From NCBI RefSeq assembly GCF_018860345.1, contig NZ_JAHKPJ010000006.1:30223-94222 (forward strand): a stretch of 64,000 nt of DNA, given 5' to 3'. The translations under genes were made by a program, and so were the position numbers. Within the stretch, counting starts at the first letter, position 1, and each line of letters begins with the position of its first letter. Under the pieces are notes generated by a model. The model was not told the origin of the DNA and did not search any database. It saw only the letters and a list, made by a program, of their open reading frames with translations. Origin of the DNA: Psychrosphaera sp. F3M07. Its GTDB lineage: Bacteria > Pseudomonadota > Gammaproteobacteria > Enterobacterales > Alteromonadaceae. Below, in pieces: positions 12,842 through 32,064 of the stretch.

Positions 12842-14707
12842 TTACTTTCCGCATAACCTATTTCGGCCAGATTTTTTAGCATCATAAAGAGCCGTATCTG
12901 CTCGTTGGATTATATCTGTTTGATAAGCGTCGTTTATAGAGGCTTCTGATAGACCTAAACTGATCGTGACTGGCTGAACTAGCCCTGGAATATCCAAGTC
13001 TTCAATCGCTAGCCTAAATTCTTCTAATTGAGCATGCGCTGCTTGATAACTTTTGGAATTCAATATGATTAAGAACTCTTCGCCGCCATATCGGCCAACG
13101 GGTTGCGCTTCACCAAATATATTGATTGCGCAGTCCGCAATATGTTTTAAAACGGCATCTCCCATCACATGACCAAATTGGTCATTAATGTTTTTGAACA
13201 AATCTAAATCAAACATACACACATACAAGGATTGTTTTGATTTTTTAAAGTCGTTGAATCTTTGAGATAAAATAGCCATTATTTTTCTGCGATTATATAA
13301 GCCGGTTAAATCATCTGTGGTGGCGAGTTTATCCAGCTGTTTCTGTAATCGAATATTGCGTGACAGAATAAAAGTCACAAAAATAGCAATGCAGATTGAA
13401 AATAGAGACGTCAATATTAATAAATCTGTTTGTTTCTTATGTTTATCTAGCTCCACTTTCTTAAGCTGATTTTCTAATATTAATAATTGGTTATCTTTAG
13501 CATAAATCGAGTTTTTAAGTTTCTCAAAAACGGATTCTCTAGAAATTTCTAATTGTTGTTTATGGTAAGACCTAAGTTGATCTATATAGTTTTGTTGCAC
13601 TTGATAGGCTTCTTTTATTTTGCCTAATGCAAAAAAGACATTAGCTTGAGTTTCAGCCGACTGCACATAAGTTTCAAACGACCTTTCTGTTTTATATGGT
13701 TTAAGCGCTTCTAATTTGGCTAAAGAGTCTTGTGCGTCTTCATACATTTTTAAGTTTAATTGTACGCTAGCGAGATCGCCGTATATTTGAATTAAATTTC
13801 CGATATGATTCTCAGGTAAAAAACGTTGTTTTGCATCTAATAAAACCGTTAAGGCTTGATCGTATTGCTTGGCGTGTAAATAACTGCGCCCCATCCCCAT
13901 ATACGCATAAGCAATACCTATAATATCTCCGCTATTACGGCTGTAACGTTCTGAATTTTTATATGCGTTTATAGCTTGTTCATAGTCTTCGGTTTGGATA
14001 TAAATATCCGCTAAGTTGTAGTAAGCCACGGAGAGTTGTTGTGTGTTTTCAGTTAACATCACATATTCAATTGATTTTAACATGGCTTCGATAGCACCAT
14101 CCGGGTGACCCGTTTGTAAATAAATGGTACACAAGGCATTGTACATAGTGGATAAAGCATCTGGGCTGGATACATTATCGACTAGTTCATATGACTGAGT
14201 CATATAATCCATCGCTTGATCAACCCGATTATTACTCGCTAACGTACCACTATAAACCGATAACATTTCAACGATAAGCTCTGGATCTTCCGTCTTTTTA
14301 GCGTAATCAATGGCTTGTTCTAAATACTCATACTGCTGCGGTATGTTCTGTTTGAATTGGGAGTAGTAAGCCAAGGTTAAGTACATGTAGGTTTTATCGT
14401 GGGCAGATATATTTAACTCAAGTGCATTGGTGGCATATTTATAACCAAGTTCAAACTCAGAATATATAGGATATAAACGGGCTAACCAATAAATGACTTT
14501 GGCATTCTCTGGGAATTCGACGGATAACTCTTTCGCTAAGTTTAATGCTTGCTGGCTATCCGATTTATATACTGACTCAATATCCTGTAACTTGGATGAA
14601 AGCGAAGAGGCTGGGTTACTAGCTAATGCAGAAAAAGCCGTAACTAAAAAGAAACTTATTAATAAAATAATATGTGATGTTTTGCTATTTGATACTTTAA
14701 ATTTCAT
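12842..14707 (-). CDS. Periplasmic-TPR diguanylate cyclase (GGDEF)
   Basis: A 621-residue membrane protein. A signal peptide (about 1-29) is followed by tetratricopeptide repeats (about 40-370) predicted to be periplasmic, a coiled coil (about 375-420), one membrane segment (about 430-450) and a cytoplasmic GGDEF domain (about 455-621). The active site reads GGEEF near residue 540, with FDLDLFKNIND and the DDLTGLYNRR start also intact, so it should make c-di-GMP. The inhibitory RxxD I-site five residues before GGEEF is absent (the sequence there is GEAQPVGRY). It is 16 bases after the HD-GYP gene and last in the seven-gene run. The signal sensed by the TPRs is unknown. Confidence 0.92.
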   Translation of the reverse strand: MKFKVSNSKTSHIILLISFFLVTAFSALASNPASSLSSKLQDIESVYKSDSQQALNLAKELSVEFPENAKVIYWLARLYPIYSEFELGYKYATNALELNISAHDKTYMYLTLAYYSQFKQNIPQQYEYLEQAIDYAKKTEDPELIVEMLSVYSGTLASNNRVDQAMDYMTQSYELVDNVSSPDALSTMYNALCTIYLQTGHPDGAIEAMLKSIEYVMLTENTQQLSVAYYNLADIYIQTEDYEQAINAYKNSERYSRNSGDIIGIAYAYMGMGRSYLHAKQYDQALTVLLDAKQRFLPENHIGNLIQIYGDLASVQLNLKMYEDAQDSLAKLEALKPYKTERSFETYVQSAETQANVFFALGKIKEAYQVQQNYIDQLRSYHKQQLEISRESVFEKLKNSIYAKDNQLLILENQLKKVELDKHKKQTDLLILTSLFSICIAIFVTFILSRNIRLQKQLDKLATTDDLTGLYNRRKIMAILSQRFNDFKKSKQSLYVCMFDLDLFKNINDQFGHVMGDAVLKHIADCAINIFGEAQPVGRYGGEEFLIILNSKSYQAAHAQLEEFRLAIEDLDIPGLVQPVTISLGLSEASINDAYQTDIIQRADTALYDAKKSGRNRLCGK

Positions 14708-14723
14708 TATTGTTATTCATATC

Positions 14724-16373
14724 CTATGAATGATAACTTTTTTTAGTTATCTTTTCCCTTTTGTCGGGTAATACGTACCCTGGAATTATACTTTTGTCGA
14801 TCTCATCGATTTGGTCTCTTGATAAGTATTGTTGAGCATATTGCATATAAACTTCTTCATCTATAAATACGTCAAATAAATCTGGATCTATGTGTTTATC
14901 GAGTTTCATGAATCCCATTATTCTTAAACATTCACTCAACATTTTCGCTGGTTTATATGGTCTATCTGCTGCAGTTAATGCTTCAAATATATCAGCAATC
15001 GCCATCATTCTAGCGGGAACAGACATTTGTTCACGTGTTAAACCGTTGGGGTAGCCAGTACCATCCATTTTTTCATGATGGCCTCCAGCATATTCAGGTA
15101 CATTGCGTAAGTGTTTAGGGAACGGGAGTGACTCCAACATGTCAATGGTTACCACCATATGGTTGTTAATAATCTCTCGTTCTTCTGGTAATAGTGTGCC
15201 TTTAGCAATTTCCAGATTACATACTTCATTCGCCGAAAGTAAAGGTTGTTTCACACCCGCAATGGTCACTTGATGTTTTGCTGCAATATCATGTACACGT
15301 TGTTGATCATCAGGTTTCATGAACTCTCCACCAACATTCGCTTTACATAAAAACAATCTGTCTTGTTCAAGCTCTTCGATTAAACTGGGTAACTCACTTT
15401 CCAGTTTTGTAATGTCTTTGCCTTGTTTTAATTGATCAATTATTTTTTGCTGATGGGCATTTTTAATTTCATTAATGGCTAATTCAATTCGGCATTCAAC
15501 TAAAGCAATTCGATCGAAAATCGTTTCTAGTTTCGATGCTTTATCCATCACATATTCTGGCGTCGCAATTTTTCCGCAGTCATGTAACCAGCCTGCAACA
15601 GAAAGCTCATATTTTTGATTTTCGTCTAGGTAAAAGTCCGCTAATGGACCTGATTTGGTATGACAAACGGCGTCGGCGATTAACATGGTTAATTCTGGAA
15701 CACGATTACAGTGACCACCTGTATAGGGGGATTTTTCATCGATTGCGCGAGCGATTAGGCGAGTGAGAGATTTAAATAACGCTTCCATGCCATCAATCAG
15801 TTGTCTATTGGTAAGGGCAACAGCGGCCATAGACGTTAATGAGCGAATAATCTCCTCTAATGCCGGAGGGAAATCAACGACTTGCTCATCATGTTGAGCG
15901 TTAATCAGTTGTAATACACCAATCAGCTCTTTTTCATGGTTCTTCATGGGGATTGTTAATACGGACTTAGTACGATACCCCGTTTTCTCATCCATTTTAC
16001 GAGCGGCACTCATGTCATAGTTGCCAGATTCGTAAGCGTCTGAAATATTAATGACTTGATCGGTTGCGGCTGCGTATGCGACTAAAGCGTTGTAATTTGG
16101 CTCGCCATCGACAAACATTGGAATTTCAGGGAAAGGTATAGGTTTGCCAGAAGTGCCACCCATATACATATTAAGAGTGTCATTTAATAGTGTTTCGAAT
16201 TTAAGACAATTTTTTTCGGTAATAGAATATATCGTTCCGCCGTCAGCTTGCGAAAGTTGTTTAGCGCTTAGAAGAATATTCTCTAATAGTTTTGTAGTGT
16301 CTTCTTCAGTTGATAATTCCACACCCACATTAATTAAATGTTTAAGTGCTGAGTCACTAAAATCCGTTGTCAT
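14724..16373 (-). CDS. GAF-HD-GYP cyclic-di-GMP phosphodiesterase with internal insertion
   Basis: A cytoplasmic protein of 549 residues with a GAF sensor domain (about 10-190) and an HD-GYP hydrolase domain (about 200-500). Active-site residues are present: HCNRV (about 220), HDCGK (about 265) and HHEKMDGTGYP (about 430). It is therefore likely to hydrolyse c-di-GMP. HDxGK and GYP are about 165 residues apart, against roughly 75-80 in standard HD-GYP domains. The extra stretch (about 285-390) is charged and coiled-coil-like. The gene is paired with the diguanylate cyclase just downstream. A 108-base gap without a clear terminator separates it from MBL1 upstream. Confidence 0.92.
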   Translation of the reverse strand: MTTDFSDSALKHLINVGVELSTEEDTTKLLENILLSAKQLSQADGGTIYSITEKNCLKFETLLNDTLNMYMGGTSGKPIPFPEIPMFVDGEPNYNALVAYAAATDQVINISDAYESGNYDMSAARKMDEKTGYRTKSVLTIPMKNHEKELIGVLQLINAQHDEQVVDFPPALEEIIRSLTSMAAVALTNRQLIDGMEALFKSLTRLIARAIDEKSPYTGGHCNRVPELTMLIADAVCHTKSGPLADFYLDENQKYELSVAGWLHDCGKIATPEYVMDKASKLETIFDRIALVECRIELAINEIKNAHQQKIIDQLKQGKDITKLESELPSLIEELEQDRLFLCKANVGGEFMKPDDQQRVHDIAAKHQVTIAGVKQPLLSANEVCNLEIAKGTLLPEEREIINNHMVVTIDMLESLPFPKHLRNVPEYAGGHHEKMDGTGYPNGLTREQMSVPARMMAIADIFEALTAADRPYKPAKMLSECLRIMGFMKLDKHIDPDLFDVFIDEEVYMQYAQQYLSRDQIDEIDKSIIPGYVLPDKREKITKKSYHS

Positions 16374-16481: not shown

Positions 16482-17309
16482 TTAAAGTTGAATAATCTGT
16501 TGTTCTTTCGCAAAAAATATATTGCAGTCTAATTGCATTTCATTAATTTTTTGTTGCCACTTATCAATGTCATCGTCAGTTCTGTCTGGATCATGACTGT
16601 AAATAGCTAATTGTTTTATATGGCTACACTTAGCTAAATCAACGGCTTCAACTATGAGTGAATGACCCCAACCATGTTTAAGAGGCATATCTGAGTCAGT
16701 GTATTGACCATCATGGATTACTAAATCAACCCCTAATAAAAACTCTTTCCACTCATAAGAACTGGTCTTAGGCGCAGTTGGTGGTGCCAATTCATTATCT
16801 GTGACATAAGCAACCTTTTTACCAGCACTCTCAATTATATACGCAGAACCACCATTTGGATGGTTAATCGTTCGTCTATATACTCGAAAGCCATTAATTG
16901 TAACTGGCTGTATATCCCAATTAGGCTGTTTAAAGTTCAAGTTGGCTAATAACTCATCCTCATCTAATGGAAAGAAACTGCCATTAATCTGCTCAACAAT
17001 GGCTCTTGGCTGATTAGGGGTTGTCTCACTTGGATAAATATATATATTACGATTTTTTTGATAAATAGGCTTAAAAAAAGGAAAACCTTGTATATGGTCG
17101 TAATGATTATGGGACAATAATATGTAGACATCTTCTCGATGTTTCACAAATTCATCACCTATAACACGAATACCTGTGCCTGCATCTAGTATTAGTTTTT
17201 GACCACCTTCAGATTCAATTAAAACACAAGCGGTATTACCACCGTATTTTAATGTTAAAGGGCCTGGAGTAGGGCAAGAACCGCGTGTGCCGTAAAAAGT
17301 AACTTTCAT
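16482..17309 (-). CDS. MBL-fold metallohydrolase 1
   Basis: A 275-residue metallo-beta-lactamase-fold hydrolase without a signal peptide, so cytoplasmic. Metal ligands are seen: HNHYDH at about 66-71, NHPNGGSAY near 151 and ATG/SHDPDRTDDD near 240. It belongs to the large group of small phosphodiesterase-like MBL enzymes (PhnP/RNase Z-like relatives) that start MKVTFYGTRGS; the substrate is unknown. The ATG follows the stop codon of the giant lipoprotein gene with no spacing (TAA then ATG), so translation is probably coupled. It is a clear paralogue of the enzyme at 31225-32064 at the other end of the cluster. Confidence 0.88.
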   Translation of the reverse strand: MKVTFYGTRGSCPTPGPLTLKYGGNTACVLIESEGGQKLILDAGTGIRVIGDEFVKHREDVYILLSHNHYDHIQGFPFFKPIYQKNRNIYIYPSETTPNQPRAIVEQINGSFFPLDEDELLANLNFKQPNWDIQPVTINGFRVYRRTINHPNGGSAYIIESAGKKVAYVTDNELAPPTAPKTSSYEWKEFLLGVDLVIHDGQYTDSDMPLKHGWGHSLIVEAVDLAKCSHIKQLAIYSHDPDRTDDDIDKWQQKINEMQLDCNIFFAKEQQIIQL

Positions 17310-20300
17310 TTATGGTGGAGATCCGACGTAGATTGAGTATGGATTTGCCGTATCATCGAATTGCTCTATGAATTTCAAAATAACACTGTTTACTGAATTT
17401 TCTAGAGAATCTTCTAATATTGCATTAATAATTATTGAGCCGTCGTTTGTAAGTGAAATATTATCATAACCCACGATGTCACACAGCTTACTTTCAGTCG
17501 TTCCAGGAGGTGGACCATTCATCATAGAATCTAAATATGAACATTGGATTCTACCATTTGGTACTAAATAACCAGGTAATGAATTAGCCCCAAAAGTATC
17601 ATGGGGTGCACCATTTAGACCATTCAATTTAGCAATAAAACCAGTCGGTTCGTAATCAAAATATGCATTGCCGACAGCGATAATTTCATCATTTGAGTTA
17701 ACTTTTAAATCTCGTATCTCTACTTGGGGTGGTGACGAGAAAGTAGCTAAACCCGACATATCGACGGTAATAATTCCACTTGCGCCAAGGGAGGTGCCAA
17801 AACTTGTATCGACAGCGTATTTTTGGGCATCTACCCCGTTAGAAAGATCTGCATCAGTTAACTTTATCAAGAAAGACTGTTCATAATCTATCGCAGAATA
17901 TATTACTGAAGAGTCTGATAATTGCACTAATTTGCCAGAGGTTACTTGGCCTATAGCCGAAATTTCGACAGATAAAATATCATCGTTTGCATCATCAGAT
18001 GCTAAATCGTCAAAAGTACTATCAATACTACCATCTGCTTTAACTCTTAATAAAAAAGTTACTCTATCTTGAGTGGAGGCTAATTCACCTGTGCCAAGGG
18101 CAATAACAGAGCCATCGTCTTGTAATATACCTGCAGTTAAATAATTATCGTTGCTACTTAAACCAACTAAACCTGATAAGTCTATTTCGTTGATAACAAC
18201 ATTTTCAGGCGCGTTGTCTGCTAAATCTACAAGGACTATATGATTTATTGCTACTTCACTTCCGGATTGACCAAACAGTGCGATTGTATTCAACGAGCTA
18301 TTATAAGCAATACTACTTACTAGCGTAACTACTGGCATAACTATGTTTGGATATTCCGTAATTATATAACCGTGTGCATCTATTTTTTGTAATTTTAGAT
18401 GAGAATTATTAACATCCTCATTAACTATTTCAGCTGAAATAACATAATTATCACCGTTTGCATCGGTTTCATTGATTTCGACTAAACCTGTGCCTAACAC
18501 AGATATATAGCTCGATGAGTCAGCATCAGAATGTATTATAACGGGACTTTGTTGTCCGTTATTTAAGTCGTGAGACGTAATGGTTTGACCTATTATTCCG
18601 TAGTTAGTGTTATCACGTGCTGTTGAGGTAATAACTCTTCCTGAAGAATGAACCAGATTGCCGAAGAAATATTGACTCTCTGTTGGTTGAAATTCGAACA
18701 TAATTCGCTCATCAATTGCTTCAATTTGCTCTACCATAAAGTCAGGGTGGAATTGCTGATAATAGATTTCTAACTCAGTGTTATAAACTTCAGGGCTAGT
18801 GGCCAAATTCATATTTTGAGTTTCGACTGAGCTAAATATATTAATGTAGTTATCCGTGTCATCTGAATCAAACAGTACAACCGCGTGGATATCATCGTCA
18901 GAATTAATCCCTAAACCTGATGTATTAGAGAGGTCTTTATCTATGAGATCTTCTGTATCTAAAATAATACCAAGTGAACTTAAAGTACCGTTAGCACTAA
19001 GCTGGTAAGGAATTAAATTGACAGCGCCGCTAATTGGGTTGGACTTTGTAATGTAAGTTATATTGCCGGCAGAATCGATTCCTAGACTAATAACTTCTTC
19101 ATCATCAACTAAAGCTGTACCAACACCAATATAATGACCATCTACGCCACCAAACGAGGTATCCAATAAAAGTGTAGAAATATTCAACTTGGCAATTAAC
19201 TGTTCTTGTTCAGAAATATTTAGGTTCGCACTCGACCCACCTAAAATTACATTGTCGCTATCAAGTTTTTGATACGTATTAAGTTTATTTATTGCGCTAA
19301 TTCCGCCAATACTTGACACAAAAGTATTAAGTACATTGGATAAGTTGGCTATTTCAATTTCAGCTGCGAATAGCTGAGTGTCTAATAGAACCTCTACAGA
19401 ACCTAAAGCGACTAGATTACCGGCCGTATTCTGTACCAAGCCTATGATAGTTTCATCATTGGTTGACAATCCTTCTAGGTTATATGTATATGTTTGTGTA
19501 GATAAAATGCCATCTGGATCAATTTCGTCTAGTTTAAAAGATTTGGTAGTAGAACTAGTGGAACGGCTTGAACTCGCTAAATACAACATTCCATTGGTGT
19601 GTAGCACTAGGTCGACCGCTTCAGAATGGTCATTTGTAGAAAGGCCTGTATGTACAAACTTACCATCATAATCAAATGTGTTGTCTATCGAACCATCTGA
19701 GTTTAAGCGTAATAAAAATGGGCTTTCTTCACCGGCACCGTTATATTGATAACCAAGTACATAGATATAATTATTGCCACTTACTTCATCAATGATTAAT
19801 TTAGTTGGTTTAAATTTATCTAATGAACCGCTGTCATCAAACATATCAACATTAGGATCATTCAAATATTCAAAGTTAAGGTGTTTACGCCCATTGTTAC
19901 CAAAATCAGGATTTATGCTGCCGTCTGAATACAGTTTTGCAATGGTATATACATAATCAGTACCGTTAGGATTCGCCGTATAAGCCAACACAAAACGATT
20001 ATGAGCAGCATCCATTGTTGCATCCACTAAATAATCGTCGTACTCAGTGTCGGCGTAAGTATTAAATTGAGATATACCATTGTCTGCAAAAGTCGTGTCT
20101 AAAACATATTCTGAATTTTCAATAATGTTATTTATTGCAACAGCCACAGCCAGAGAACTTGTCAGTGACGTATCGTCAGTGACGGTAATGGTAAAGTTAA
20201 AGCTTGGTGTTGTTTCAAAATTTAATAAATAAGGATCATAAACCGTTACTTCACCGGTGGTTGAATTTATATCAAAAGCCCCACTTGGATCATTTAAACT

Positions 20301-23300: not shown

Positions 23301-26300
23301 ATCTAAATCGCTATCTGAGTGCTCAGAACTATCGTTAGGAAATAAATCGGTATTATCACCAACGCCGTCTGAATCAGAGTCTTCACTTTCTGACGCATCA
23401 AACGGGAACGCATCAGAGTTATCCCCTATACCATCTAAATCGCTATCTTGTTGTTCTGTATTGTCATTAGGGAAAGCATCTTTGTTATCACCAACGCCAT
23501 CAGAGTCCGTATCGGCGGATTCAGTATAATCGTATGGAAATGCATCTGAATCGTTGTGTATACCATCATTGTCTAAGTCATCGTCGCTATTGTCACCAAC
23601 ACCATCACGATCGTAATCACTCCACTCTGATGGATCGGTAGGGAAAACATCATTGTTATCAAAGTAACCATCATTGTCAGAGTCAATGACAGGTCCAAAG
23701 GTTAATTTGAAAGTTTCATCATAACCACCTCCGACCGTCAACCATAAGGTATAACTAGAAAAGTCGTAATTGAGTTTAATTTCAGCTCTGCTTTGTGTCT
23801 GTAATGGTAACTTGGAGTGAGCTAAAGGGATAAAGTCACCTACGTTAGTCACTTGATAAACTTCAATTGAAACAAAACCGGCTTCCGCGATTGAAACTAG
23901 AGCAAAACGTTTATCATCAATTTTTAAAAATGACTCATGTTCACCAGCGTTAATCGAGAATTCTGGCGTTATTGAAGGGGATATAAATGATTTAACGGTT
24001 TTTGAATCATTAAACAAAGTGACACCAATTGTCTCTGACCAAAAATTATCAGAATTGTAAAAACTGCTGTCCGTACTGCGAATATAATCGCCAATACCGT
24101 TAGTAATTTGGTACACACTTGTACCTAATGCCAGCGTATCATCGTCTAATCGTGCATCCATATTACGAATATCTAGAAACCCGTAAGCTGGAATAGCGGC
24201 ATAGACAGTTAAGCTATAATCATCTTCGATATTGTATATAGTTAAGCCGTAAGGAGACCCACCTAAACTTGAGTCATTTGAATGGTTATCGCTAATCTCA
24301 AAAGATAATATTTTATTATTATTAAGGCTTTTAACATAAATTACTCGATAGGTGGTTGAGCCAGTTCCTAGTGTATAACGTGTTGACTCTACAGTGTCGT
24401 CATCTAATAATTTATTGACCAACACTTCTGTACCCGCATAATGGGTTCCGGTATAACCCCCTTCGGTATTGTACATTTTGTCACCGAACAACATTGCCGT
24501 ATGTTCATCAACTAATATTGAGCCACGGAAATAAGATGTTAATTGTTCGGTATCTTCTGGCCACAATTCAGTGTGCTCTAAGTAACCGTGTCCGTTATCT
24601 CTGATTCTTTTGTAATTTGAACCATCGTTTAAACCAAGCAAGCTAAATTGAGATGAAACGCTGTTTGATGAAATCCTAGCTCCTTGATTGCCGAATTCAT
24701 TTTGGTTAAATTCATTTGTAATTAAAGGCAACGATGTACTGTAAAGTATTGATTCTTTTGACCAGTTGCTCCAATAAATGTAATTGTTTTGTGGATTAAA
24801 ACGAACATCCAAGGTAATGCTGTCTATAGTGGTTTGTCCAATCAGCTCTATATTGTTACCCAAAGAAAATTGGCTTAATTGATACTTACGACTTTCATCT
24901 TCATCAATAACTATTAACTTAGACTCATCATCATTGATGGACATGACATAAGCATTGGTCATATCAGAGCCATAATTTATTGATTGATGCTCAGATAACC
25001 GGCCATCACTCCCATTAATAGACATGACTTTGAGCACACCGAGATGGGCGACGTACATTTTGTTAGATGACGATGCTTTGATTGCGATGCTGTAAGGAAT
25101 ACTATCCGCTAAAGATTGAACTGTTGTAGAAACGACTAAACCGGTGTTGGTATCCGTTTTTAATATTGCAATTTTAGAGTCTTCATAGGCGTAATAAATA
25201 AATTTGCTGTCTGAAGAAATTGCAAAGTTATGCTCGTAATCTGGATACCCAAATGAGTTTAAATCAAATTCTCCGGCATAACTTAAGTGACCATTGGTTT
25301 GATCAATTTTGTAAATTAATAAGTAGTTTCCAGCAGAACTATAATGAACCGTTGTATATAAGAATTGACCGTTAGGTGAAAACTCAAATATTTCAGGCTG
25401 ATTCGATTCAGCAGCCGCATCCGCTTTTAACATAAGCGGCATAGTTTGAGATAATTTTGCTTCCCCCGTAATAGGGTCAACATTAAAGACTCTTATGCCA
25501 AAGGTTGCTTCACCATTTAATTCAATGATTGATGCCCAGTATAAATTACCGTCATCAGCAAATTTTATATAATTCCCTTGAGTCGAATTACGGTTACCTA
25601 GTTGGGTTGTTGTGAGTTGGTTAAAAGTACCCGTTACTGAACCATCGTCATTTAAGTCGGCAATCATAAGACCGTTATTTGAGCCTATATATGCATAACG
25701 ACCATTAGGATGAATAGCTAACGATTGAACATTATCTAACATTCCATTAGATATCATGCCTTTATTGGAAAAGCCTAAATGTGTGTCGCCGTCTGTAAAT
25801 TCAGCAACTAACGGATGGCTGTCAATGTTATCTAAGATACCGTCGTTATCGTCGTCAGTGTCAACTTCATTTGGTTGACCGTCGTTATCTGTGTCTTGTG
25901 CGCTAACCGTTATTTCAAATTGTTGATCGGTTGTCGAGTCAAGATCAGAAACGCTTAACGTAATTAATCCGGAGGTAGAAATATCGGTTGTCGGTATCCA
26001 AGTTATTTTACCAACCTCAGATATACTCATTCCAACAGGCGCATTGGTTAGCGTCCATGTTAACTCTGATTGAGTGTTGTTAGGATCGGATGCGGTTGGG
26101 GTGTATGAATAGAGTGTATTATGCTTCGCTGTTATAGGCGCTAAAGACGTGATAGTCGGTGCAACATTAGTTAAATTAACCTGAAGATAAAATGAAACCG
26201 TATATTCTTCTCCATCGATTAAATACACAATAGTTATTGTGTCAAAGCCACCGAAACCTTTTGTAGGAGTATAGGTGATGGTATCACCATCAATCGTTAT

Positions 26301-28418
26301 TTCGCCGTGTTCTGCGTTAATGTCATTGATTTCATAAAGAGTATCAAATCCATTCGTGAGTTCAGAAATACTGATCGTAATTGGACTTAGATCATCGGTC
26401 GTTGCGATAACTTCACTGACAAATAGTTGTACAGTGGCATCAACACTATTTAACTTACCGTCTGTAATTTTATAAGTAAAACTATCCGTTCCGATAAACT
26501 CTGAATTGGGGGTATAACTAAAACTACCGTCTTCTAATACGACTAAAGAGCCTGACGTTGGCTCAGAAACTGAGTCAAGTACTACAGAAATCTCATCATT
26601 ATCTACATCCTTATCATTGGCTAAAATTCCAAAAAAGGGCGGCAAATCATTTGGGCTATTCGCTTGGACTATATAACTATCGTTTAATGGCGTAGGAGCA
26701 TCGTTTTGAGCGATTACATTTATGGTAACAATCGCGGTTGCGGTATTGTTGTTATCATCGGTCAGGCTATAGCTAAACTGGTCGTTACCAAAATAATTTG
26801 AATTGGGTTGGTAAGTGAAACTGCCGTCGTCGGCAATGACTAAAGCGCCATTATTGGGTTCTGTTGTTACACTTAACGTTAATTCGTCCGTTGCATTATC
26901 TTCATCAAAGTCGTTGATTAAAATGCCTTTATCTTCAGATACAATTAGTTGTGCATCTTCATTAGTTTCATACGAATCGTTTATTGTTACCGGTGGATAC
27001 CCATTAAATTCTGGGCTTGTTATGGTTACCGTTGCAGATTGTGAGGAATCAGAACCATCGGTAATAGAGTATGTAAAGTTATCATAAGTGGTAAAGTTAA
27101 CTCCTTTTTTATACTCAAAGCTGCCATCAGCGTTGATGGTCACTTCACCAAATTTAGGTTGTTGTAGTAACTCGGTTATAACGGTTAGCGGATCATTATC
27201 TATATCCGTATCGTTGATTAACACACCTGGCGAAGTGATTGTTAATGTGTCGGCTTCAATCACAAAAGTGTCATTGATTGCTGAAGGTAAGTCATTTACT
27301 GCGTTTATTGTAATAGTGACGTTGTTGCTACTGGTTAAGCCATGAGAGTTTATGATGCTGTAACTAAATTGATCAGTTCCATTAAAGTTTTCATTTGGCG
27401 TGTAAGTAAAATCGCCATTTTCAGTAATGATAACCGTACCATTTGTTGGCAAAGTTACGGGGGTGGTAACCGCAACAATAATATCGCCTTCAGCGCTGTC
27501 ATTAAGTAATAAGTTATTGCTTAAGATTTGGTCTTCATCAGTCGAAAACGTATCTGCGGCGGCAATAGGCACAACCGATTTGTTGCCATTAATTAAAATT
27601 AGTTTGTCGCTAAATGCACTTTCTCCACTACCATCAATTCCCGTAACTAATATGTAATAGTCAGCAGTAACTGTTTTTTGTGTAAAAACAGTAGAGGTTT
27701 CCGTTAATGCTAATTTCGCTTCGCCACCGGTCAGATCAATATAATTTTGACCGGTTAGAGCCACGTCATTACTAACGTAAACATTATAACGTAAAGCCGT
27801 TGTTAACGGACTCCAGCTAATGGATAACTCCTCACTGTCTGGGTTTAACGTTGCTGAAACACCTGTTATAACTAATTCACGCCAATTGATATTTAGATTA
27901 TTTACTTGGGATAAGTTGCCGTCATTATCTTCAACCCATAGTGTTATTGTTTGTTCACCACTAGACAAGGCAAACAACTTAGGATTAATGCCGTTTACAA
28001 ATGCAGAAAATTCCGTTCCACAATCGATCTCACAAATTGGTAATGTCATATCAGAGCCAACAAAGCCAATCAATACTTGTTTGATTCCTTGTTCATCGGC
28101 GACATCTAGAGAAACCGATATGTTGCCTGAGAATTCAGTCGCTGCTGAAGGGTAGTTAAATCCGCCCGTAGCATTAAAAACACTCGCTGTAGCAACGGAA
28201 TTAGTTTGGTATACAACCCCAGCTACTTTGTGAGCAACCTTTTGTTGTACTAATGTAGCTTTGGATGCATCTATGACGTTGTCAGAGGTTTTATCTGTAT
28301 CAGACGTTGATTGCTCACCATCTGAATTGAACTTACCACAGGCCGCAGTAAGTAATATGCTCATAAACAAAATTAACGTTCTGTTTATTTTACTAATTTG
28401 ATATGTGGCTAATTTCAT
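17310..28418 (-). CDS. Giant (3702-residue) mosaic outer-membrane lipoprotein
   Basis: A signal peptide with a lipobox-like TAAC puts the acylated Cys at residue 27. Gly follows, so Lol sorting to the outer membrane is expected. Domains in order: cadherin-like tandem repeats (about 285-665); an Ig-like domain (about 750-835); a thrombospondin-3 Ca-binding motif (about 840-868); a beta-propeller-like region (about 885-1570); a TSP3 array of 22-residue units (about 1575-1725); a jelly-roll-like module (about 1726-1860); leucine-rich repeats (about 1875-2185); a second TSP3 motif and jelly roll (about 2200-2370); two copies of a roughly 194-residue Ig/cadherin unit (about 2374-2760); and delta-60-type repeats to the end. 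It resembles large surface adhesins. It lies eight bases after the FecR gene. Function is inferred; no catalytic domain was seen. Confidence 0.88.
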   Translation of the reverse strand: MKLATYQISKINRTLILFMSILLTAACGKFNSDGEQSTSDTDKTSDNVIDASKATLVQQKVAHKVAGVVYQTNSVATASVFNATGGFNYPSAATEFSGNISVSLDVADEQGIKQVLIGFVGSDMTLPICEIDCGTEFSAFVNGINPKLFALSSGEQTITLWVEDNDGNLSQVNNLNINWRELVITGVSATLNPDSEELSISWSPLTTALRYNVYVSNDVALTGQNYIDLTGGEAKLALTETSTVFTQKTVTADYYILVTGIDGSGESAFSDKLILINGNKSVVPIAAADTFSTDEDQILSNNLLLNDSAEGDIIVAVTTPVTLPTNGTVIITENGDFTYTPNENFNGTDQFSYSIINSHGLTSSNNVTITINAVNDLPSAINDTFVIEADTLTITSPGVLINDTDIDNDPLTVITELLQQPKFGEVTINADGSFEYKKGVNFTTYDNFTYSITDGSDSSQSATVTITSPEFNGYPPVTINDSYETNEDAQLIVSEDKGILINDFDEDNATDELTLSVTTEPNNGALVIADDGSFTYQPNSNYFGNDQFSYSLTDDNNNTATAIVTINVIAQNDAPTPLNDSYIVQANSPNDLPPFFGILANDKDVDNDEISVVLDSVSEPTSGSLVVLEDGSFSYTPNSEFIGTDSFTYKITDGKLNSVDATVQLFVSEVIATTDDLSPITISISELTNGFDTLYEINDINAEHGEITIDGDTITYTPTKGFGGFDTITIVYLIDGEEYTVSFYLQVNLTNVAPTITSLAPITAKHNTLYSYTPTASDPNNTQSELTWTLTNAPVGMSISEVGKITWIPTTDISTSGLITLSVSDLDSTTDQQFEITVSAQDTDNDGQPNEVDTDDDNDGILDNIDSHPLVAEFTDGDTHLGFSNKGMISNGMLDNVQSLAIHPNGRYAYIGSNNGLMIADLNDDGSVTGTFNQLTTTQLGNRNSTQGNYIKFADDGNLYWASIIELNGEATFGIRVFNVDPITGEAKLSQTMPLMLKADAAAESNQPEIFEFSPNGQFLYTTVHYSSAGNYLLIYKIDQTNGHLSYAGEFDLNSFGYPDYEHNFAISSDSKFIYYAYEDSKIAILKTDTNTGLVVSTTVQSLADSIPYSIAIKASSSNKMYVAHLGVLKVMSINGSDGRLSEHQSINYGSDMTNAYVMSINDDESKLIVIDEDESRKYQLSQFSLGNNIELIGQTTIDSITLDVRFNPQNNYIYWSNWSKESILYSTSLPLITNEFNQNEFGNQGARISSNSVSSQFSLLGLNDGSNYKRIRDNGHGYLEHTELWPEDTEQLTSYFRGSILVDEHTAMLFGDKMYNTEGGYTGTHYAGTEVLVNKLLDDDTVESTRYTLGTGSTTYRVIYVKSLNNNKILSFEISDNHSNDSSLGGSPYGLTIYNIEDDYSLTVYAAIPAYGFLDIRNMDARLDDDTLALGTSVYQITNGIGDYIRSTDSSFYNSDNFWSETIGVTLFNDSKTVKSFISPSITPEFSINAGEHESFLKIDDKRFALVSIAEAGFVSIEVYQVTNVGDFIPLAHSKLPLQTQSRAEIKLNYDFSSYTLWLTVGGGYDETFKLTFGPVIDSDNDGYFDNNDVFPTDPSEWSDYDRDGVGDNSDDDLDNDGIHNDSDAFPYDYTESADTDSDGVGDNKDAFPNDNTEQQDSDLDGIGDNSDAFPFDASESEDSDSDGVGDNTDLFPNDSSEHSDSDLDGVGDNSDAYPFDNTQSTFVELNSYVEVSDFSISSAYTQSTSSWFAQSEYYTAGGSALRSGAISKDQFSILKTTIDAGSEGASLSFDWKVSTQEYNAQLALYVDAQHWNAITGEHDWHNQTIELSPGTHEIEWHYIKYDSVDSNYDDAGFIDNVVLSENQKLANINWDDPDLGQCIMNNHSFTNADVNDVHYISCSGTFETLTDLVRFPNLNQVNFTETTVNDWTALIALDLFNFSLHGNTNFDDFSLLQNHSNLSTLTLYGVNLASWDFLYDFDLSYLNLDDSNFTDLNLVTHMSKLDSLLLTNNNISDWLVLSQLDLQYLSVSNTDFSDVSLLSQMTNLTGLNVNYVNLDPTNWALITNLETLWSLQASGSNISSLEGLTNLSSLALDHTYVYDFTPLKNLQLGYFTANNTTFDDFDNLAGSQNTLHQLNISYTNITELTPIYSFTNLSYLHANVPTFGTIENGILFDLYNNGMTIYEAPDNNANGIFDFLEDIDGDGEFNDIDSDDDGDGVLDINDAYPNEVDVHELIDLADAVEYSESIVTSGFTDGFARWFEQNDNFTTGSSALQSGSVRNNNRSILTTDIDAGDDGATLSFDWKINSDNSNGSLQLYVDGSQVAQINGNKLWQQMSYLLSAGSHFIEWHFQNWQGENNSGFIDNISVDQLIINDSPQITSSAPTNATEDILYTYIPTVVDLDDVNNGSDLIWTLTDEPAGMVISSTGEVTWTPLEGVYTSGLVTLTVSDGGEDNSIPYSETFTVTVTSVNDAPEFTSSNNITLDENSKSGSLVYSPVIIDPDTGQSHTFSLFDSSGAFTIDTQNGLVFVANESLLNFETTPNFTFDIVVTDEDGLWDTHSISLTLNDINDSPSISSSAPASATEDLIYTYTPTVIDEDDANNGSDLIWSLVNAPAGMTISATGEVTWTPLEGVLTSDTVSIVVTDGGEDGATAFTENFIVSVTAVNDAPQFTSASNITLNENTPFGVSVYTPTVVDPDSGATHTFSLNDPSGAFDINSTTGEVTVYDPYLLNFETTPSFNFTITVTDDTSLTSSLAVAVAINNIIENSEYVLDTTFADNGISQFNTYADTEYDDYLVDATMDAAHNRFVLAYTANPNGTDYVYTIAKLYSDGSINPDFGNNGRKHLNFEYLNDPNVDMFDDSGSLDKFKPTKLIIDEVSGNNYIYVLGYQYNGAGEESPFLLRLNSDGSIDNTFDYDGKFVHTGLSTNDHSEAVDLVLHTNGMLYLASSSRSTSSTTKSFKLDEIDPDGILSTQTYTYNLEGLSTNDETIIGLVQNTAGNLVALGSVEVLLDTQLFAAEIEIANLSNVLNTFVSSIGGISAINKLNTYQKLDSDNVILGGSSANLNISEQEQLIAKLNISTLLLDTSFGGVDGHYIGVGTALVDDEEVISLGIDSAGNITYITKSNPISGAVNLIPYQLSANGTLSSLGIILDTEDLIDKDLSNTSGLGINSDDDIHAVVLFDSDDTDNYINIFSSVETQNMNLATSPEVYNTELEIYYQQFHPDFMVEQIEAIDERIMFEFQPTESQYFFGNLVHSSGRVITSTARDNTNYGIIGQTITSHDLNNGQQSPVIIHSDADSSSYISVLGTGLVEINETDANGDNYVISAEIVNEDVNNSHLKLQKIDAHGYIITEYPNIVMPVVTLVSSIAYNSSLNTIALFGQSGSEVAINHIVLVDLADNAPENVVINEIDLSGLVGLSSNDNYLTAGILQDDGSVIALGTGELASTQDRVTFLLRVKADGSIDSTFDDLASDDANDDILSVEISAIGQVTSGKLVQLSDSSVIYSAIDYEQSFLIKLTDADLSNGVDAQKYAVDTSFGTSLGASGIITVDMSGLATFSSPPQVEIRDLKVNSNDEIIAVGNAYFDYEPTGFIAKLNGLNGAPHDTFGANSLPGYLVPNGRIQCSYLDSMMNGPPPGTTESKLCDIVGYDNISLTNDGSIIINAILEDSLENSVNSVILKFIEQFDDTANPYSIYVGSPP
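20130..21297 (-). repeat. Tandem duplication inside the giant lipoprotein gene
   Basis: Two diverged copies of a unit of about 582 bases (about 194 residues) run head to tail, each encoding one Ig-like domain plus one cadherin-like domain. Matching landmarks are TEDILYTY / TEDLIYTY, WTPLEGV in both, and LLNFETTP in both. They are protein-level repeats with diverged DNA, so the duplication is old. Confidence 0.8.
23260..23690 (-). repeat. Thrombospondin type 3 repeat array in the giant lipoprotein gene
   Basis: Imperfect tandem units of 66 bases encode 22-residue repeats of the form DxFPxDxxExxDSDxDGVGDN. The regularly spaced Asp residues are typical of calcium-binding TSP3 repeats, and the block probably works as a Ca-stiffened linker between the propeller-like and jelly-roll regions. 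Confidence 0.85.
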
Positions 28419-28426
28419 AATATTTA

Positions 28427-29857
28427 CTACTTAAGCAAGAAGCTGCCATTCACTTTATTATTGGGATTATGTATTTCATGGAAATCAAACTCTCCAACAA
28501 CAGAGTTTAAACCGTCAAAAAACGATGCGTTAATATCCCCATCAGCGAGGTTATTACCATGTGAAGCGAAACTTATATCTAAATTTAATTGATCAACTGA
28601 AATAATCCCACTGAAGGCCGCAAACCATTCTCCACCTGCATCATCAAAAGATATTTGACCAGTAGGGATTGTGCCATTATCAAAGTTAATGTTCATATTC
28701 ATATTGAAATTTGAAATTGCACCGGCGCTAGACGTCACTGAGAAACTTTCTACATTGTTGTAATTAAAGCTGCCACTGCGTTGTGATAATAATTCCTCAG
28801 TTGTTGAGGTATCAATTGAATTAAAGTCATCTTCTACCGTTGTTGGAGCGTTATCTTCAATTTGTTGGAACTCTTCAGATATGGTGCTGGTTACGAGCTC
28901 CGTTTGTTCAGATATAGCTACATCTTCTGCTACATTTTCAGGTTCTTCAAGAGTACTATTGTCACTTGTATCTACGGCAATCAAAGACCCTTCTGAATCA
29001 TCATTCTCTTCTGAATCTGAGGTGTCAGACGAATCAGTTTCTGATGCAATTTGGCTATTTTCATCAGATTCAGAGGAGCCTTCTTCATTTTCATCAGTCG
29101 CTTCATCGTTACTCTCATCTGAATTTTCTTCATTGCCTTCATCGTTATTTTCATCCGAGCTTTCTCCGTCTTCCGAATCACCTTCATCGTCGGTTGATTC
29201 AGAATTATTTGATTCAGACTCTTCATCTTCCTCTTCACTATCGTCTGTACTATGTCCTTCATTAAAGTTTTCAGGTGCTTCTAATAACTGAGTCACTTCA
29301 CCTTCTTCACTCACAACGCCAAATGAATAATCTTCACCATCACCAAAAGATACTGTGCTTTCACTTCCGCCAGTTTCAACTGTGACATCTATAGCACCGT
29401 CCCAAACTGCAAGAAACATATCACCTTCAATTAATTCAATTTCGTAATGGGTTCCTCGGATACCGATACTGCCTGTAGGTGTTTTTAAGTTGTAATCGCC
29501 GTTTTCAGCTTTTATAGCACCTGTGACTGAACGCAATCCACCTTTTACTAGCTCCATAACCACAGAACCTCTGCCATTTTCATCAGAAAAACGGTAATCG
29601 GAAATGAGTAGTTCCGTACTTTCTTTGAGGGCAATCATGCCTCCATCAGCCATACGAAGTTGGGCTTTACTTTTTTTACCTGTGGTAACCACATCGTTGT
29701 CATAAATGATGGAACGTCGTTTAAGCGCCCTGGTTTTATCATTGGCGATGGCACTTACTTTACCTTTAGAAATAAGTGTTTTTCCTGCGGTTGTTTGTGC
29801 ATTAACACTGTTTGCAGTGACAAGGCTGACGACTAGTACTATCTTATAAATATTCAT
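28427..29857 (-). CDS. FecR-domain periplasmic protein with acidic linker
   Basis: A 476-residue exported protein with a signal peptide (about 1-20, ending VNAQ) and a FecR domain (about 25-150). Hallmarks are ALKRRSIIYDNDVVTTG, ADGGMIALKESTEL and TPTGSIGIRGTHYEI. About 90 residues of almost only Asp, Glu, Ser and Asn follow (about 203-292). A C-terminal beta-rich domain (about 350-476) contains SFDDAGGEWFAAFSG and ends GSFLLK. FecR domains often sense or scaffold at the cell envelope; no sigma factor or TonB receptor gene is nearby, so this is not the classical FecIRA setup. It lies between the TPR-barrel and giant lipoprotein genes with eight-base gaps on both sides. Operon membership is therefore nearly certain. 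Confidence 0.88.
   Translation of the reverse strand: MNIYKIVLVVSLVTANSVNAQTTAGKTLISKGKVSAIANDKTRALKRRSIIYDNDVVTTGKKSKAQLRMADGGMIALKESTELLISDYRFSDENGRGSVVMELVKGGLRSVTGAIKAENGDYNLKTPTGSIGIRGTHYEIELIEGDMFLAVWDGAIDVTVETGGSESTVSFGDGEDYSFGVVSEEGEVTQLLEAPENFNEGHSTDDSEEEDEESESNNSESTDDEGDSEDGESSDENNDEGNEENSDESNDEATDENEEGSSESDENSQIASETDSSDTSDSEENDDSEGSLIAVDTSDNSTLEEPENVAEDVAISEQTELVTSTISEEFQQIEDNAPTTVEDDFNSIDTSTTEELLSQRSGSFNYNNVESFSVTSSAGAISNFNMNMNINFDNGTIPTGQISFDDAGGEWFAAFSGIISVDQLNLDISFASHGNNLADGDINASFFDGLNSVVGEFDFHEIHNPNNKVNGSFLLK
28980..29255 (-). repeat. Low-complexity acidic coding repeat in the FecR gene
   Basis: Dense GAA/GAT/TCA codon mixture encoding about 90 residues of Glu, Asp, Ser and Asn. 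The opposite strand is open in this stretch and would encode a Ser-rich shadow that is not a gene. Confidence 0.85.
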
Positions 29858-29865
29858 AAACTTCC

Positions 29866-31179
29866 CTACAGCTCATATTGCCAACTGGCACCAAGTTCAA
29901 CTCGGTCATAACTATATAATTTTATGTTACTGCTTTTATTCTGCACATTTAAATGCAGTTTTAAGTTCAATCTATCTGTGGAATTAAACATTAACTGAGA
30001 TGAAAACATCGACATTGTTTCATCACGCTCTTGCAAAAATAACGGATGAACGCCTTTATAGGTGTGCTGTTCAACCATAAACGAATTATTACTAATGACG
30101 GAATCTGTAATTGGCCAAGTTAATTGGTACATTGCGCCAATTACATCTTTATCATTAAACACATAACGCGAATCATCACTAACATCCTGTTGCCAATGAG
30201 CCATTATCGTGTGAACTTGGCTTGATTTTAAAAGGTATGAAACGGATAACTTGGTACGAGATAAGTCTAGTTCAGAATTTAATTCGTTGCTGATTACTGA
30301 ATAACTGAGGCTAGACATGATGCCACTACTTTTAGATAACTCACTTTGCCAATTAGAGCTTGCACCAGCTTCGGTTCGGTAATGTGTACCATTTAACCAT
30401 AAAGGACGAGCAAAGCCGGATACTGATAATGTGCCCACTTTAGATTTTTGTGCATAAGCTAAGTCAAAATTAACCATGTGTCTTTGGTATTCATTAAACT
30501 CTAAATAATCTACGTAATTTGCACCAATGTTGACTTTTAACCATTGGTTTTGGCTAATAGGGTGTTGATAGTTTGCTTTGTAATTAAACGAATATGTTAG
30601 GTCGCGCGTCTGTCTAGAGTTATCAAATAATTGAATTTCGCCTAAATTGGGAATGAATATCTGCTCTTCTGCAGTGCCGCTATTAATGTTATCGTCAAAT
30701 GCCATCATGCCAGATATAAAATGGCCCCACGTTTTATTTTTATTAAGAATGGTTTTATTAATTCGATTTAATAATTTTGTTGCACTGTCGCGCTGATTAT
30801 CTAATAGGGGTCTTTTAAGTAAACGGTTTAATTCAGCCACAGCCGCTTGTAGGTTATCTAACTTTTGGTAGGTTTGAGCTAGATAAAATCGTGCTAAATA
30901 AGAGTTAGGGACTTCGATTACTACTCGTTCAAATGCAAATACGGCCTCTTGGTATTGTTTATGTCCGTAAGCTGAAAAACCACTTAATAAGTCGAACTCA
31001 GGCAAGCCACCATATTCAAAGGTATATTCATCCGACAATTGGAACGCTTGTGCATACTGTTTGTTGGTTAATAAGACATTAAGCTGTTTTATAACGTCTG
31101 GATAGGGCATAACCTTGGCATAAGTTGTAAAACTTAGTATCAATAACAAACTTATTAAAAATGTGAAAATCCGGCTCAT
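29866..31179 (-). CDS. TPR plus outer-membrane beta-barrel protein (Slam-like layout)
   Basis: A 437-residue exported protein with a signal peptide (about 1-21), periplasmic tetratricopeptide repeats (about 28-150) and a C-terminal region (about 165-437) of alternating amphipathic strands. It ends in an aromatic-containing strand (WQYEL), fitting an outer-membrane barrel of about 12-14 strands. TPR followed by a barrel is the layout of Slam/type XI-type proteins that move lipoproteins to the cell surface. Family membership is inferred from layout, not from a search. It lies eight bases before the FecR gene and 45 bases after MBL2. Alternative: a structural OM protein with TPRs that contact FecR. 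Confidence 0.78.
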   Translation of the reverse strand: MSRIFTFLISLLLILSFTTYAKVMPYPDVIKQLNVLLTNKQYAQAFQLSDEYTFEYGGLPEFDLLSGFSAYGHKQYQEAVFAFERVVIEVPNSYLARFYLAQTYQKLDNLQAAVAELNRLLKRPLLDNQRDSATKLLNRINKTILNKNKTWGHFISGMMAFDDNINSGTAEEQIFIPNLGEIQLFDNSRQTRDLTYSFNYKANYQHPISQNQWLKVNIGANYVDYLEFNEYQRHMVNFDLAYAQKSKVGTLSVSGFARPLWLNGTHYRTEAGASSNWQSELSKSSGIMSSLSYSVISNELNSELDLSRTKLSVSYLLKSSQVHTIMAHWQQDVSDDSRYVFNDKDVIGAMYQLTWPITDSVISNNSFMVEQHTYKGVHPLFLQERDETMSMFSSQLMFNSTDRLNLKLHLNVQNKSSNIKLYSYDRVELGASWQYEL

Positions 31180-31224
31180 TTTTGTTTTAGTTCCTTTGGC
31201 GTACGCTTGGTATATAAAAGGGCA

Positions 31225-32064
31225 TTATTCTCTTAAAATTAAACTTTGACCTTCTTTAGCAAAAAAGAAACTGAAGTCAGGGTTTGTTTTTAATATTTTA
31301 GCAGTTAAATCATCAATTTCTTCGTCTGTTCTTAAAGGGTCATGACTAAACAAAGATAACATTTTAACATTTGCATTATGGGCTAAATTTAATGTCTCTG
31401 ATATAGAGGAATGTCCCCAACCGAATTTTTGTGTCATTTCATGATCTAAATATTGGGCATCATGTATTAATAAGTCGGCGTTAGCGCAAAACCCGGCCCA
31501 TTGTTGTACAGTGCGAAAATGATGACTCTCTGGGGCTACAAGTTCATGATCTGTCGCATAAACTAAGATTTGATTATCACACTTTATCCGATAAGCTGAG
31601 CCACCATCAGGGTGATTCATATCCATAGCTTGAATTATAAAGTCACCTACCTCAATACCTTCATCGACAGAAAAGTTGGTTTTCTTTAATGTAATGGTCG
31701 ACGGAAGCTGATGAAATTTTACTGGGAAATAACTTTTACTCATCTGATCTAAAATCGCAGTATCATGATTTAGAGTCGTACTTCCAGGGTAAATCGTTAT
31801 GTTTACTCCTTTTTTAAAAATAGGCGTGAAAAAAGGAAATCCCTGTAAATGGTCCCAATGGTGATGGCTTAATAAGATGTGGATGGTGTCGTTATAGTTT
31901 TCAAATTCTTTACTGGCAAGTCGTAAACCTGTGCCAGCATCTAAAATTAGCTTTTGACCACCATCGCTTTGTAATACAACACAAGGCGTATTACCCCCGT
32001 ATCTTGCAGTATCAGGTCCGGGTGTGGGGATGGAGCCTCTGACTCCGTAAAAGGTTACTTTCAT
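31225..32064 (-). CDS. MBL-fold metallohydrolase 2
   Basis: A 279-residue paralogue of the hydrolase at 16482-17309, sharing MKVTFYG.RGS.PTPGP, YGGNT, GGQKLILDAGTG and HxHxDH (HHHWDH, residues 66-71). NHPDGGSAY, ATDHE and SHDPLRTDEE are also conserved, so the metal site is intact. It is cytoplasmic with unknown substrate. Start chosen at ATG 32064, because the paralogue begins with the same MKVTFYG; an in-frame TTG three codons upstream is unlikely. It is the first gene of the seven-gene run. Confidence 0.88.
   Translation of the reverse strand: MKVTFYGVRGSIPTPGPDTARYGGNTPCVVLQSDGGQKLILDAGTGLRLASKEFENYNDTIHILLSHHHWDHLQGFPFFTPIFKKGVNITIYPGSTTLNHDTAILDQMSKSYFPVKFHQLPSTITLKKTNFSVDEGIEVGDFIIQAMDMNHPDGGSAYRIKCDNQILVYATDHELVAPESHHFRTVQQWAGFCANADLLIHDAQYLDHEMTQKFGWGHSSISETLNLAHNANVKMLSLFSHDPLRTDEEIDDLTAKILKTNPDFSFFFAKEGQSLILRE

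Follow-up and report, generated by a model that had tools for sequence, protein, structure and literature searches.

Does a run of genes that joins an outer-membrane exporter to a FecR-domain protein, a giant repeat protein and enzymes of cyclic-nucleotide turnover serve to display an adhesin, or to report what happens at the cell surface inward? The question is raised by seven genes at positions 12842-32064 of a 64,000-nucleotide stretch of the Psychrosphaera sp. F3M07 genome (GCF_018860345.1, NZ_JAHKPJ010000006.1, positions 30,223-94,222 of the forward strand; this whole stretch is the window, to which all coordinates refer). All seven genes lie on the minus strand, with gaps, in the order of the run, of 45, 8, 8, 0, 108 and 16 bases, and encode a metallo-beta-lactamase-fold (MBL) hydrolase (the second copy, MBL2), a tetratricopeptide repeat (TPR) protein with an outer-membrane barrel (TPR-barrel), the FecR-domain protein, a giant probable lipoprotein, another hydrolase (MBL1), a GAF-HD-GYP protein and a TPR-GGDEF protein. 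The original prediction, which came from a reading of the DNA, had this layout right, and Pfam agrees with all its domain labels (GGDEF, HD_5 plus GAF, Lactamase_B_2 twice, FecR, SlipAM and Ig/cadherin repeats). It interpreted the run as a surface-display or adhesion system in which the exporter serves the lipoprotein under the control of cyclic di-GMP (c-di-GMP). The Slam-type barrel, the probable lipoprotein and the fixed order of the core stand; the lipoprotein as the client and c-di-GMP as the core of the output do not.

On balance, we favour another reading, based on sequence, structural models and analogy, namely, that the run probably encodes the outer part of a cell-surface signalling module that spans the envelope, is built on an exporter of the type XI secretion system (T11SS)/Slam family and acts via the FecR protein on cyclic AMP (cAMP). 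It looks like a marine version of a widespread bacterial module that would report surface events inward.

Conservation of the core and its linkage to an adenylate cyclase

Related loci were collected from one genome per species with the C-terminal domain of the FecR protein alone as the query. The scan returned 45 loci including one chance match (L082, a Planctomycete locus with a 30-residue match), which was dropped. In all of the remaining 44 loci (44/44), the genes for the TPR-barrel, the FecR protein and a giant Ig/cadherin protein are directly adjacent, in this order; L069, where the barrel gene and the big gene are in pieces, was kept, and the end of the stretch truncates the big gene at L040, L041, L042 and L055. 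The query was built from ten of the 44 loci and is biased towards them. The remaining 34 played no part in building it and include loci from Rheinheimera, Pseudoalteromonas, Paraglaciecola, Alteromonas, Bowmanella, Marinifaba, Thalassomonas and a Colwellia metagenome-assembled genome. Given the fixed order in 44 of 44 loci, 34 of them outside the query's own, the arrangement is not due to chance. The co-occurrence of the core genes, for which profile searches had been proposed as the check, is thereby upheld, but the set of seven genes as a unit is not: MBL2 is found upstream of the exporter in 4 of the 44 loci, every one in the genus of the window, and the GGDEF gene was seen only in close relatives.

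The same counts bear on the simplest alternative, that the genes are neighbours by history only and share no function. The restriction of MBL2 and, as far as seen, of TPR-GGDEF to one lineage, and the chemotaxis and housekeeping genes that border the run, would fit such a history. It is nevertheless strongly disfavoured, with very little probability left to it, by the order kept in 44/44 loci across several genera, by the overlap of the barrel and FecR gene ends in 29/44 loci (with the starts chosen by the script) and by the joint absence of the barrel, FecR and cyclase genes from two members of the genus.

The cyclase in question, a CHASE2-adenylate cyclase of ~740 residues, is the most constant signalling partner in the related loci, being encoded downstream in 38 of the 44. 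The six loci without it are L038, L039 and L055 (all Psychrosphaera, with none in view) and L040-L042 (cut by the locus end); extension of L041 brought an MBL and an HD-GYP gene into view, and still no cyclase. The cyclases of four genus members that have the module are 82%, 81%, 70% and 64% identical to that of the window genome; in a fifth member (G005), the cyclase lies within the locus, in two pieces. Residues K530, D608, D490 and D534, which we take to bind ATP and metal, are invariant in 23 sequences. The same proteins end in a tail with the consensus DWDGSYTHTSK, in which the W, the G, the H and the final K are present in 23/23 tails (e.g. L085:6979-9198).

Among 60 relatives, searched at E ≤ 8e-27 for the barrel, E ≤ 1e-30 for FecR and E ≤ 1e-60 for the cyclase, 13 have the barrel, and both FecR and the cyclase are present in 13/13 of these. 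The cyclase was found in 4 of the 47 barrel-less relatives (G033, G047, G051 and G057), of which G047 and G051 have a FecR match and G051 also has a weak barrel match; G042 has a weak barrel match and neither partner. The genus members G004 and G007 are the two without barrel, FecR and cyclase at these thresholds. Some copies are in pieces, namely, FecR, the big protein and the cyclase in L027 (G005), and the exporter, the big protein and HD-GYP in L033/L069 (G011); decay and assembly error are both possible for these fragmented copies. A comparison of the FecR protein with plasmid records gave no match.

The exporter and its candidate client

The TPR-barrel protein (437 residues, 29866-31179, minus strand) matches PF04575 (SlipAM) with 39.6 bits against a cut-off of 22, in support of the Slam type proposed originally. 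The AlphaFold model, built with 44 sequences, has 8 helices and 14 strands and a predicted local distance difference test (pLDDT) score of 93.8; the predicted barrel of the original prediction is thus present in the model. The TPR helices span residues 26-147 (30739-31104) and the barrel of 14 strands, the strand number of the Slam barrel, spans residues 150-437 (29869-30732). The model resembles OmpG/CymA (Z ~22) and TPR proteins (Z ~17), and there is no Slam structure among its 50 listed PDB neighbours. Within the family, PF04575 matches 14 of 44 members at E ≤ 0.01, and TPR_Slam (PF24575) matches 19 of 44; L069, where the exporter and big-protein genes are in pieces, was left out of the barrel alignment. 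By domain and predicted fold, the TPR-barrel is a T11SS/Slam-family outer-membrane protein.

The same genome has a second T11SS-type locus, L037 (G000:C26:310000-329999; genes at 1-7677, 7677-9188 and 9237-10607). Its SlipAM protein scores 23.2 bits, barely above the cut-off, a 503-residue neighbour has a C-terminal TbpB-type barrel (PF01298, 6.5e-5, below its cut-off) and no FecR domain, and the repeat protein has at least 2558 residues.

The FecR protein (28427-29857, minus strand) starts with a Sec-type signal peptide, as judged by eye, and consists of three parts. The FecR domain (PF04773, 55.5 bits; residues 55-156 in Pfam, 29390-29695) has as its closest solved fold the cell-surface signalling domain of PupR (6ovk, Z 15.0 over 138 residues, 3.1 Å). 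It is followed by an acidic linker that is predicted to be disordered (residues 201-349, 28811-29257, pLDDT <50), with 40% D/E over 152 residues; in 44 relatives, linker acidity is 7-39%, and the linker is shorter in all but one. The C-terminal part, first seen as a conserved domain of ~110 residues in the alignment of the relatives' FecR proteins, is modelled as an 8-stranded barrel (residues 352-476, 28430-28804). The mean pLDDT of the whole model (45 sequences) is 73.7; in 10-residue means, it is at least 91 from residue 361 and 82 for residues 351-360.

The barrel is most similar to NHBA (5o1r, Z 11.8), HphA (8gmm, 10.6), TbpB (3ve2, 10.6) and fHbp (8up2, 10.3). In the PDB list for the FecR model, which is a re-alignment, by a second aligner, of Foldseek's own picks, 3 FecR-domain entries are followed by 47 that are all NHBA, hemophilin, TbpB, fHbp, LbpB or HpuA; ranks 4-50 span Z 11.8 to 9.3, and one of these entries, 3hoe, is titled merely surface lipoprotein. 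TbpB, LbpB, HpuA and fHbp are described as substrates of Slam, and proteins of the hemophilin type as T11SS cargo (PMC8406197). Because its C-terminal barrel is of the Slam-substrate type, the FecR protein is a better candidate for the exporter's client than the giant lipoprotein; the barrel fold is seen in the model, and the client function is probable. Among more distant FecR proteins, the profile of the FecR tail matches 5 of the 12 that adjoin the same exporter, and of three scanned with Pfam, two have weak matches below the cut-offs (L118, PF01298, 0.0054; Shinella, PF08794, 0.0021). Three of the five, in the distant FecR families of L120, L121 and L123, have two tail-profile matches each, one of them weak, an arrangement that resembles the two-lobed TbpB.

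The architecture also suits a different role, in which the FecR protein is itself a T11SS effector, either secreted or at the surface, with the FecR domain as its binding head, and the cyclase cluster senses general envelope stress. A head, a linker and a C-terminal barrel make up the layout of T11SS cargo (PMC12282271). FecR genes, however, also neighbour CHASE2 cyclases at loci with a two-partner exporter, where no barrel tail was found, and we consider the effector role improbable.

A further candidate role, that of an anti-sigma protein for an extracytoplasmic function sigma factor, was ruled out for the window protein: a signal-peptide-like start is followed by the FecR domain, without an anti-sigma part. 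No anti-sigma domain or membrane helix was seen in the protein, and none of the 7 genes in the run (0/7) encodes a sigma factor.

The giant Ig/cadherin protein

The gene downstream of FecR (17310-28418, minus strand) encodes 3702 residues, with a conserved N-terminal domain of ~230 residues, Ig/cadherin repeats (Big_9, Cadherin_4/5) and, by Pfam, a propeller-type DUF5122 repeat. Judging by the lipobox (LTAAC, read by eye, with Cys27), it is very probably a lipoprotein, as originally labelled. A lipobox was found, by pattern and reading, in 39 of the 43 scorable homologues (L069 left out); the other four (L066, L070, L076 and L077) have a plain signal peptide and no lipobox, so that lipidation is seemingly not essential to the system.

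On sequence grounds, the giant protein was rejected as the obvious Slam substrate. The FecR-tail profile matches neither the window protein nor the 10 homologues given, and there is no TbpB/fHbp Pfam match in the giant protein; together with the four homologues that lack a lipobox and the presence of a substrate-type barrel in the FecR protein, this counts against the lipoprotein as the client of the Slam-like exporter, as first proposed. It also bears on plain secretion, the alternative in which the T11SS exporter displays the giant lipoprotein, as an adhesin, along with the FecR protein, and the role of the cyclic-nucleotide enzymes is limited to adjusting expression or activity. The membership of the barrel in the Slam family, the lipobox in 39/43 homologues and the adhesin-like repeats all favour such a system. 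Yet the big protein shows no Slam-substrate barrel by sequence, four homologues have no lipobox, and a mere exporter needs no tight tie to one sensor cyclase; we regard plain secretion as unlikely, although it retains appreciable weight.

Comparison with known systems

Like the NsrA-CyaK pair, in which we take nsrA to lie immediately upstream of cyaK, the related loci combine FecR, TPR and an outer-membrane barrel beside a CHASE2 cyclase (38/44). CyaK, CyaD1 and CyaD2 of Sinorhizobium meliloti are all CHASE2 cyclases. NsrA is reported to be the outer-membrane receptor that acts with such a cyclase in a cAMP response to an external signal (PMC7529298, PMC13001267); this response requires nsrA and cyaK, and the NsrA barrel is described (PMC7529298); CyaD1 without its CHASE2 domain reportedly yields constitutive cAMP, and the genes regulated by cAMP include one for a FecR-domain protein (PMC5498481). 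On S. meliloti pSymB, a frame of 1224 residues, with FecR (59 bits) and TPRs by Pfam, abuts a CHASE2 cyclase; we take it to be NsrA, as a frame of this length can accommodate the barrel that PMC7529298 places at 600-1200. There are differences: the cyclase of the window genome is on another contig rather than adjacent, NsrA is one chain of 1224 residues whereas the barrel and the FecR protein are separate here, and NsrA has no Slam-substrate barrel by Pfam and no giant lipoprotein. A Shinella gene row consists of a TPR-barrel (hhalign probability 97, E 9e-12), a FecR protein of 849 residues and the cyclase, and in Ensifer and Ruegeria, FecR adjoins the cyclase.

With T11SS/Slam (DUF560, PF04575) systems, the locus shares a TPR protein with a 14-stranded barrel and a neighbour that starts with a Sec-type signal and ends in an 8-stranded barrel. 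Unlike T11SS cargo such as TbpB, fHbp, HpuA, LbpB and hemophilin, this neighbour has a FecR signalling domain as its head, and a cyclase is linked to the locus; the main texts of the T11SS papers PMC12282271 and PMC8406197 contain none of the words FecR, cyclase and CHASE. The FecR fold is also common to FecA-FecR-FecI and PupB-PupR (PupR 6ovk, Z 15.0), systems in which the outer-membrane transporter is the receptor. Here, unlike in those systems, no anti-sigma domain, inner-membrane helix or sigma gene was seen, the proposed output is cAMP, and the transporter is of an exporter family.

The original prediction knew of no described system with this set of genes. Part of the set is in print: clusters of Campylobacterota contain a CHASE2 cyclase, a cAMP phosphodiesterase, a FecR-domain outer-membrane protein and a TPR protein, although the available portion of that paper neither identifies a Slam-family exporter with a cargo-type barrel nor mentions a giant lipoprotein (PMC9239204). 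The Burkholderia BiofilmReg operon likewise has a FecR-domain protein beside a CHASE2 sensor, but there the pair is a LysM-FecR protein and a histidine kinase, and no outer-membrane exporter is mentioned in the available text (PMC5192318). Neither the Slam-FecR link nor an exchange of T11SS and two-partner exporters was found in the open-licence papers searched; one paper on siderophores, PMC11233812, does contain both FecR and surface lipoprotein assembly as terms.

Exporter types across Gammaproteobacteria

To place the module in the class as a whole, 369 evenly drawn Gammaproteobacteria, including the window genome, were searched, with the best few candidates per genome scored. Of the 71 barrel matches (E ≤ 4e-30), 57 have a FecR match within 3.5 kb on the same strand. 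The cyclase (E ≤ 7.6e-177) is present in 48/55 genomes with the barrel (E ≤ 1.4e-40) vs. 36/314 genomes without it (Fisher test, 1e-29, uncorrected for descent); weaker cyclase matches exist in 4 of the 7 exceptions and weaker barrel matches in some of the 36. Distant barrel-FecR loci have the cyclase within the stretch in 7 of 11 cases; those without it are L119, L124, L126 and L128, of which two are truncated at a contig end, and L129 (G047), where a cyclase but neither a barrel nor a FecR gene was called in the stretch, was excluded from the count.

No FecR match lies beside exporters of both kinds, T11SS and two-partner. Among 132 typed rows (some FecR genes give two), 66 are within 3.5 kb of this exporter, at least 16 are near a ShlB-type two-partner exporter and 0 are near both; the ShlB counts here and below are lower bounds. 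FecR lies within 10 kb of 31 of the 88 cyclases, 22 with this exporter, 5 with ShlB and 4 with neither; one more cyclase has ShlB only. The median length of the FecR reading frame is 327 residues away from the exporter (39 typed rows) vs. 555 beside it (64), and the cargo-type tail was found by profile in 0/10 FecR proteins from stretches without this exporter (L139, where the gene caller found neither FecR nor the cyclase, was excluded). These data suggest, tentatively, that at least two unrelated kinds of exporter, T11SS and two-partner, may serve as receptors for one relay, from FecR through the CHASE2 cyclase to cAMP. FecR would be re-tailed to fit, with a Slam-substrate barrel beside Slam-type exporters and none beside ShlB-type ones, and the export or engagement of the giant surface protein would be read as a cAMP signal; we hold this possible rather than probable. 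Because of this alternative pairing with two-partner exporters and of the NsrA-CyaK precedent, surface sensing is indicated over display or adhesion, and the adhesion system originally proposed is not supported as stated, some weight being left to it as plain secretion.

In L140, L141, L142 and L143, the clusters of FecR and CHASE2 cyclase contain ShlB with POTRA (by Pfam), a two-partner exporter, in place of the Slam-type exporter. Of three large neighbours scanned in these loci, two (L140 and L143) have a two-partner secretion domain; that of L142, which is cut, matches nothing. At L130 (Ensifer) and L131 (Shinella), FecR and the CHASE2 cyclase are beside an annotated NHLP bacteriocin-type ABC exporter and a cyclic-nucleotide-binding protein; the NHLP-type exporter is a possible third exporter partner.

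A proposed mechanism and the evidence against it

In the signalling module that we favour, the TPR-barrel would form a 14-stranded outer-membrane pore, with the TPRs N-terminal, as in the model. The FecR protein, the probable client, would dock in the pore or pass through it, its FecR domain facing the periplasm on the long acidic tether. The giant Ig/cadherin protein may act as a surface stalk in contact with the outside. With its CHASE2 sensor domain, the inner-membrane cyclase would then read the state of the outer complex and make cAMP, as gene linkage and the NsrA-CyaK analogy suggest. The MBL would hydrolyse cAMP and so reset the system, and HD-GYP and, in this lineage, the diguanylate cyclase could tie the response to c-di-GMP.

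Several observations weigh against this scheme. To our knowledge, the dependence of NHBA on Slam is unsettled, and we do not claim NHBA as a Slam substrate. Foldseek itself gives the FecR barrel weak E-values (0.014 for NHBA, lipocalins ranking lower), so that the match to the cargo fold relies on the second aligner and on how uniform its list is; the TbpB/fHbp Pfam domains (PF01298, PF08794) are found in 0/45 close FecR proteins. Alignment of NsrA with the window-type barrel by hhalign covered the TPR part only (probability 16), and that of the FecR parts of NsrA and the module had a probability of 29 (E 6e-4). The cyclase of the window genome lies outside the locus, on contig C14 (740 residues, 967 bits to the family profile), and being on another contig, it is not visible in the window; a second copy of the module in G002 (L025 = L055) shows neither a cyclase nor an MBL gene over the 2.8 kb in view after the big protein. 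Across the class, both exporters are absent within 3.5 kb of 50/132 FecR rows and 56/88 cyclases have no partner within 10 kb, and the statistics ignore phylogeny, with thresholds set by where the lists were cut.

If the signalling reading holds, it would provide a function for environmental T11SS branches, whose cargo is mostly uncharacterised, and a defined periplasmic partner, FecR, for CHASE2 cyclases, whose ligands are mostly uncharacterised as well. NsrA, so far an isolated symbiosis receptor, would become one case of a widespread two-membrane route for surface information, and CHASE2 sensing would become an experimentally tractable question.

Hydrolase, HD-GYP and GGDEF genes and the borders of the run

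MBL2 (31225-32064, minus strand, with an ATG start codon at 32064) and MBL1 (16482-17309, minus strand) match PF12706 with 43.9 and 53.1 bits, respectively. The two are paralogous, as predicted, with 48% identity and a zinc motif in both (HHHWDH in MBL2, HNHYDH in MBL1). Of the 44 loci, 27 have an MBL gene downstream, and in 25 of the 38 loci with the cyclase, MBL is encoded between the big protein and the cyclase; its gene overlaps that of the cyclase in alteromonads and Ensifer, and in G313, it is the divergently oriented neighbour of the cyclase gene. MBL1 is the predicted cAMP phosphodiesterase of the module. The model for cyclic nucleotide-degrading phosphodiesterases, NF041851, has a cut-off of 400 bits and gives 44.1 bits for MBL2 and 35.6 bits for MBL1; RNase Z models outscore it (60.3 and 48.9 bits, respectively), likewise far below their cut-offs. 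Comparison of MBL1 with PDB sequences gave 0 matches.

The GAF-HD-GYP protein (14724-16373, minus strand) has an HD_5 match of 145 bits, a GAF domain and the HDCGK and HHEKMDGTGYP motifs; the TPR-GGDEF protein (12842-14707, minus strand) has a GGDEF match of 123.5 bits and a GGEEF motif. HD-GYP is on the same strand in 26/44 loci and on the opposite strand in 6 more, and several others are cut before its place. TPR-GGDEF follows HD-GYP in the window, L038 and L039; the gene after HD-GYP is something other than TPR-GGDEF in G002, G005, G014 and G027, and a third match of the TPR-GGDEF profile (L064, 87 bits) is a different GGDEF protein. Since the stretch ends inside HD-GYP, the GGDEF gene could not be scored in most of the 44 loci. 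It is apparently a recent addition in the lineage of the window. The c-di-GMP pair was therefore rejected as the core output, the GGDEF gene being lineage-specific as far as seen; HD-GYP, a common companion, is kept as a part, and to that extent the predicted c-di-GMP control stands.

A consensus scan listed no terminators in the gaps between the genes of the run; because its totals are near the shuffled expectation, a single transcript is not established. A gene for a methyl-accepting chemotaxis protein (32374-34260, plus strand) is divergent beside the module. This gene is missing at G005 and at the second copy in G002, and the same divergent gene is found at G001, at the first copy in G002, at G003 and at G006.

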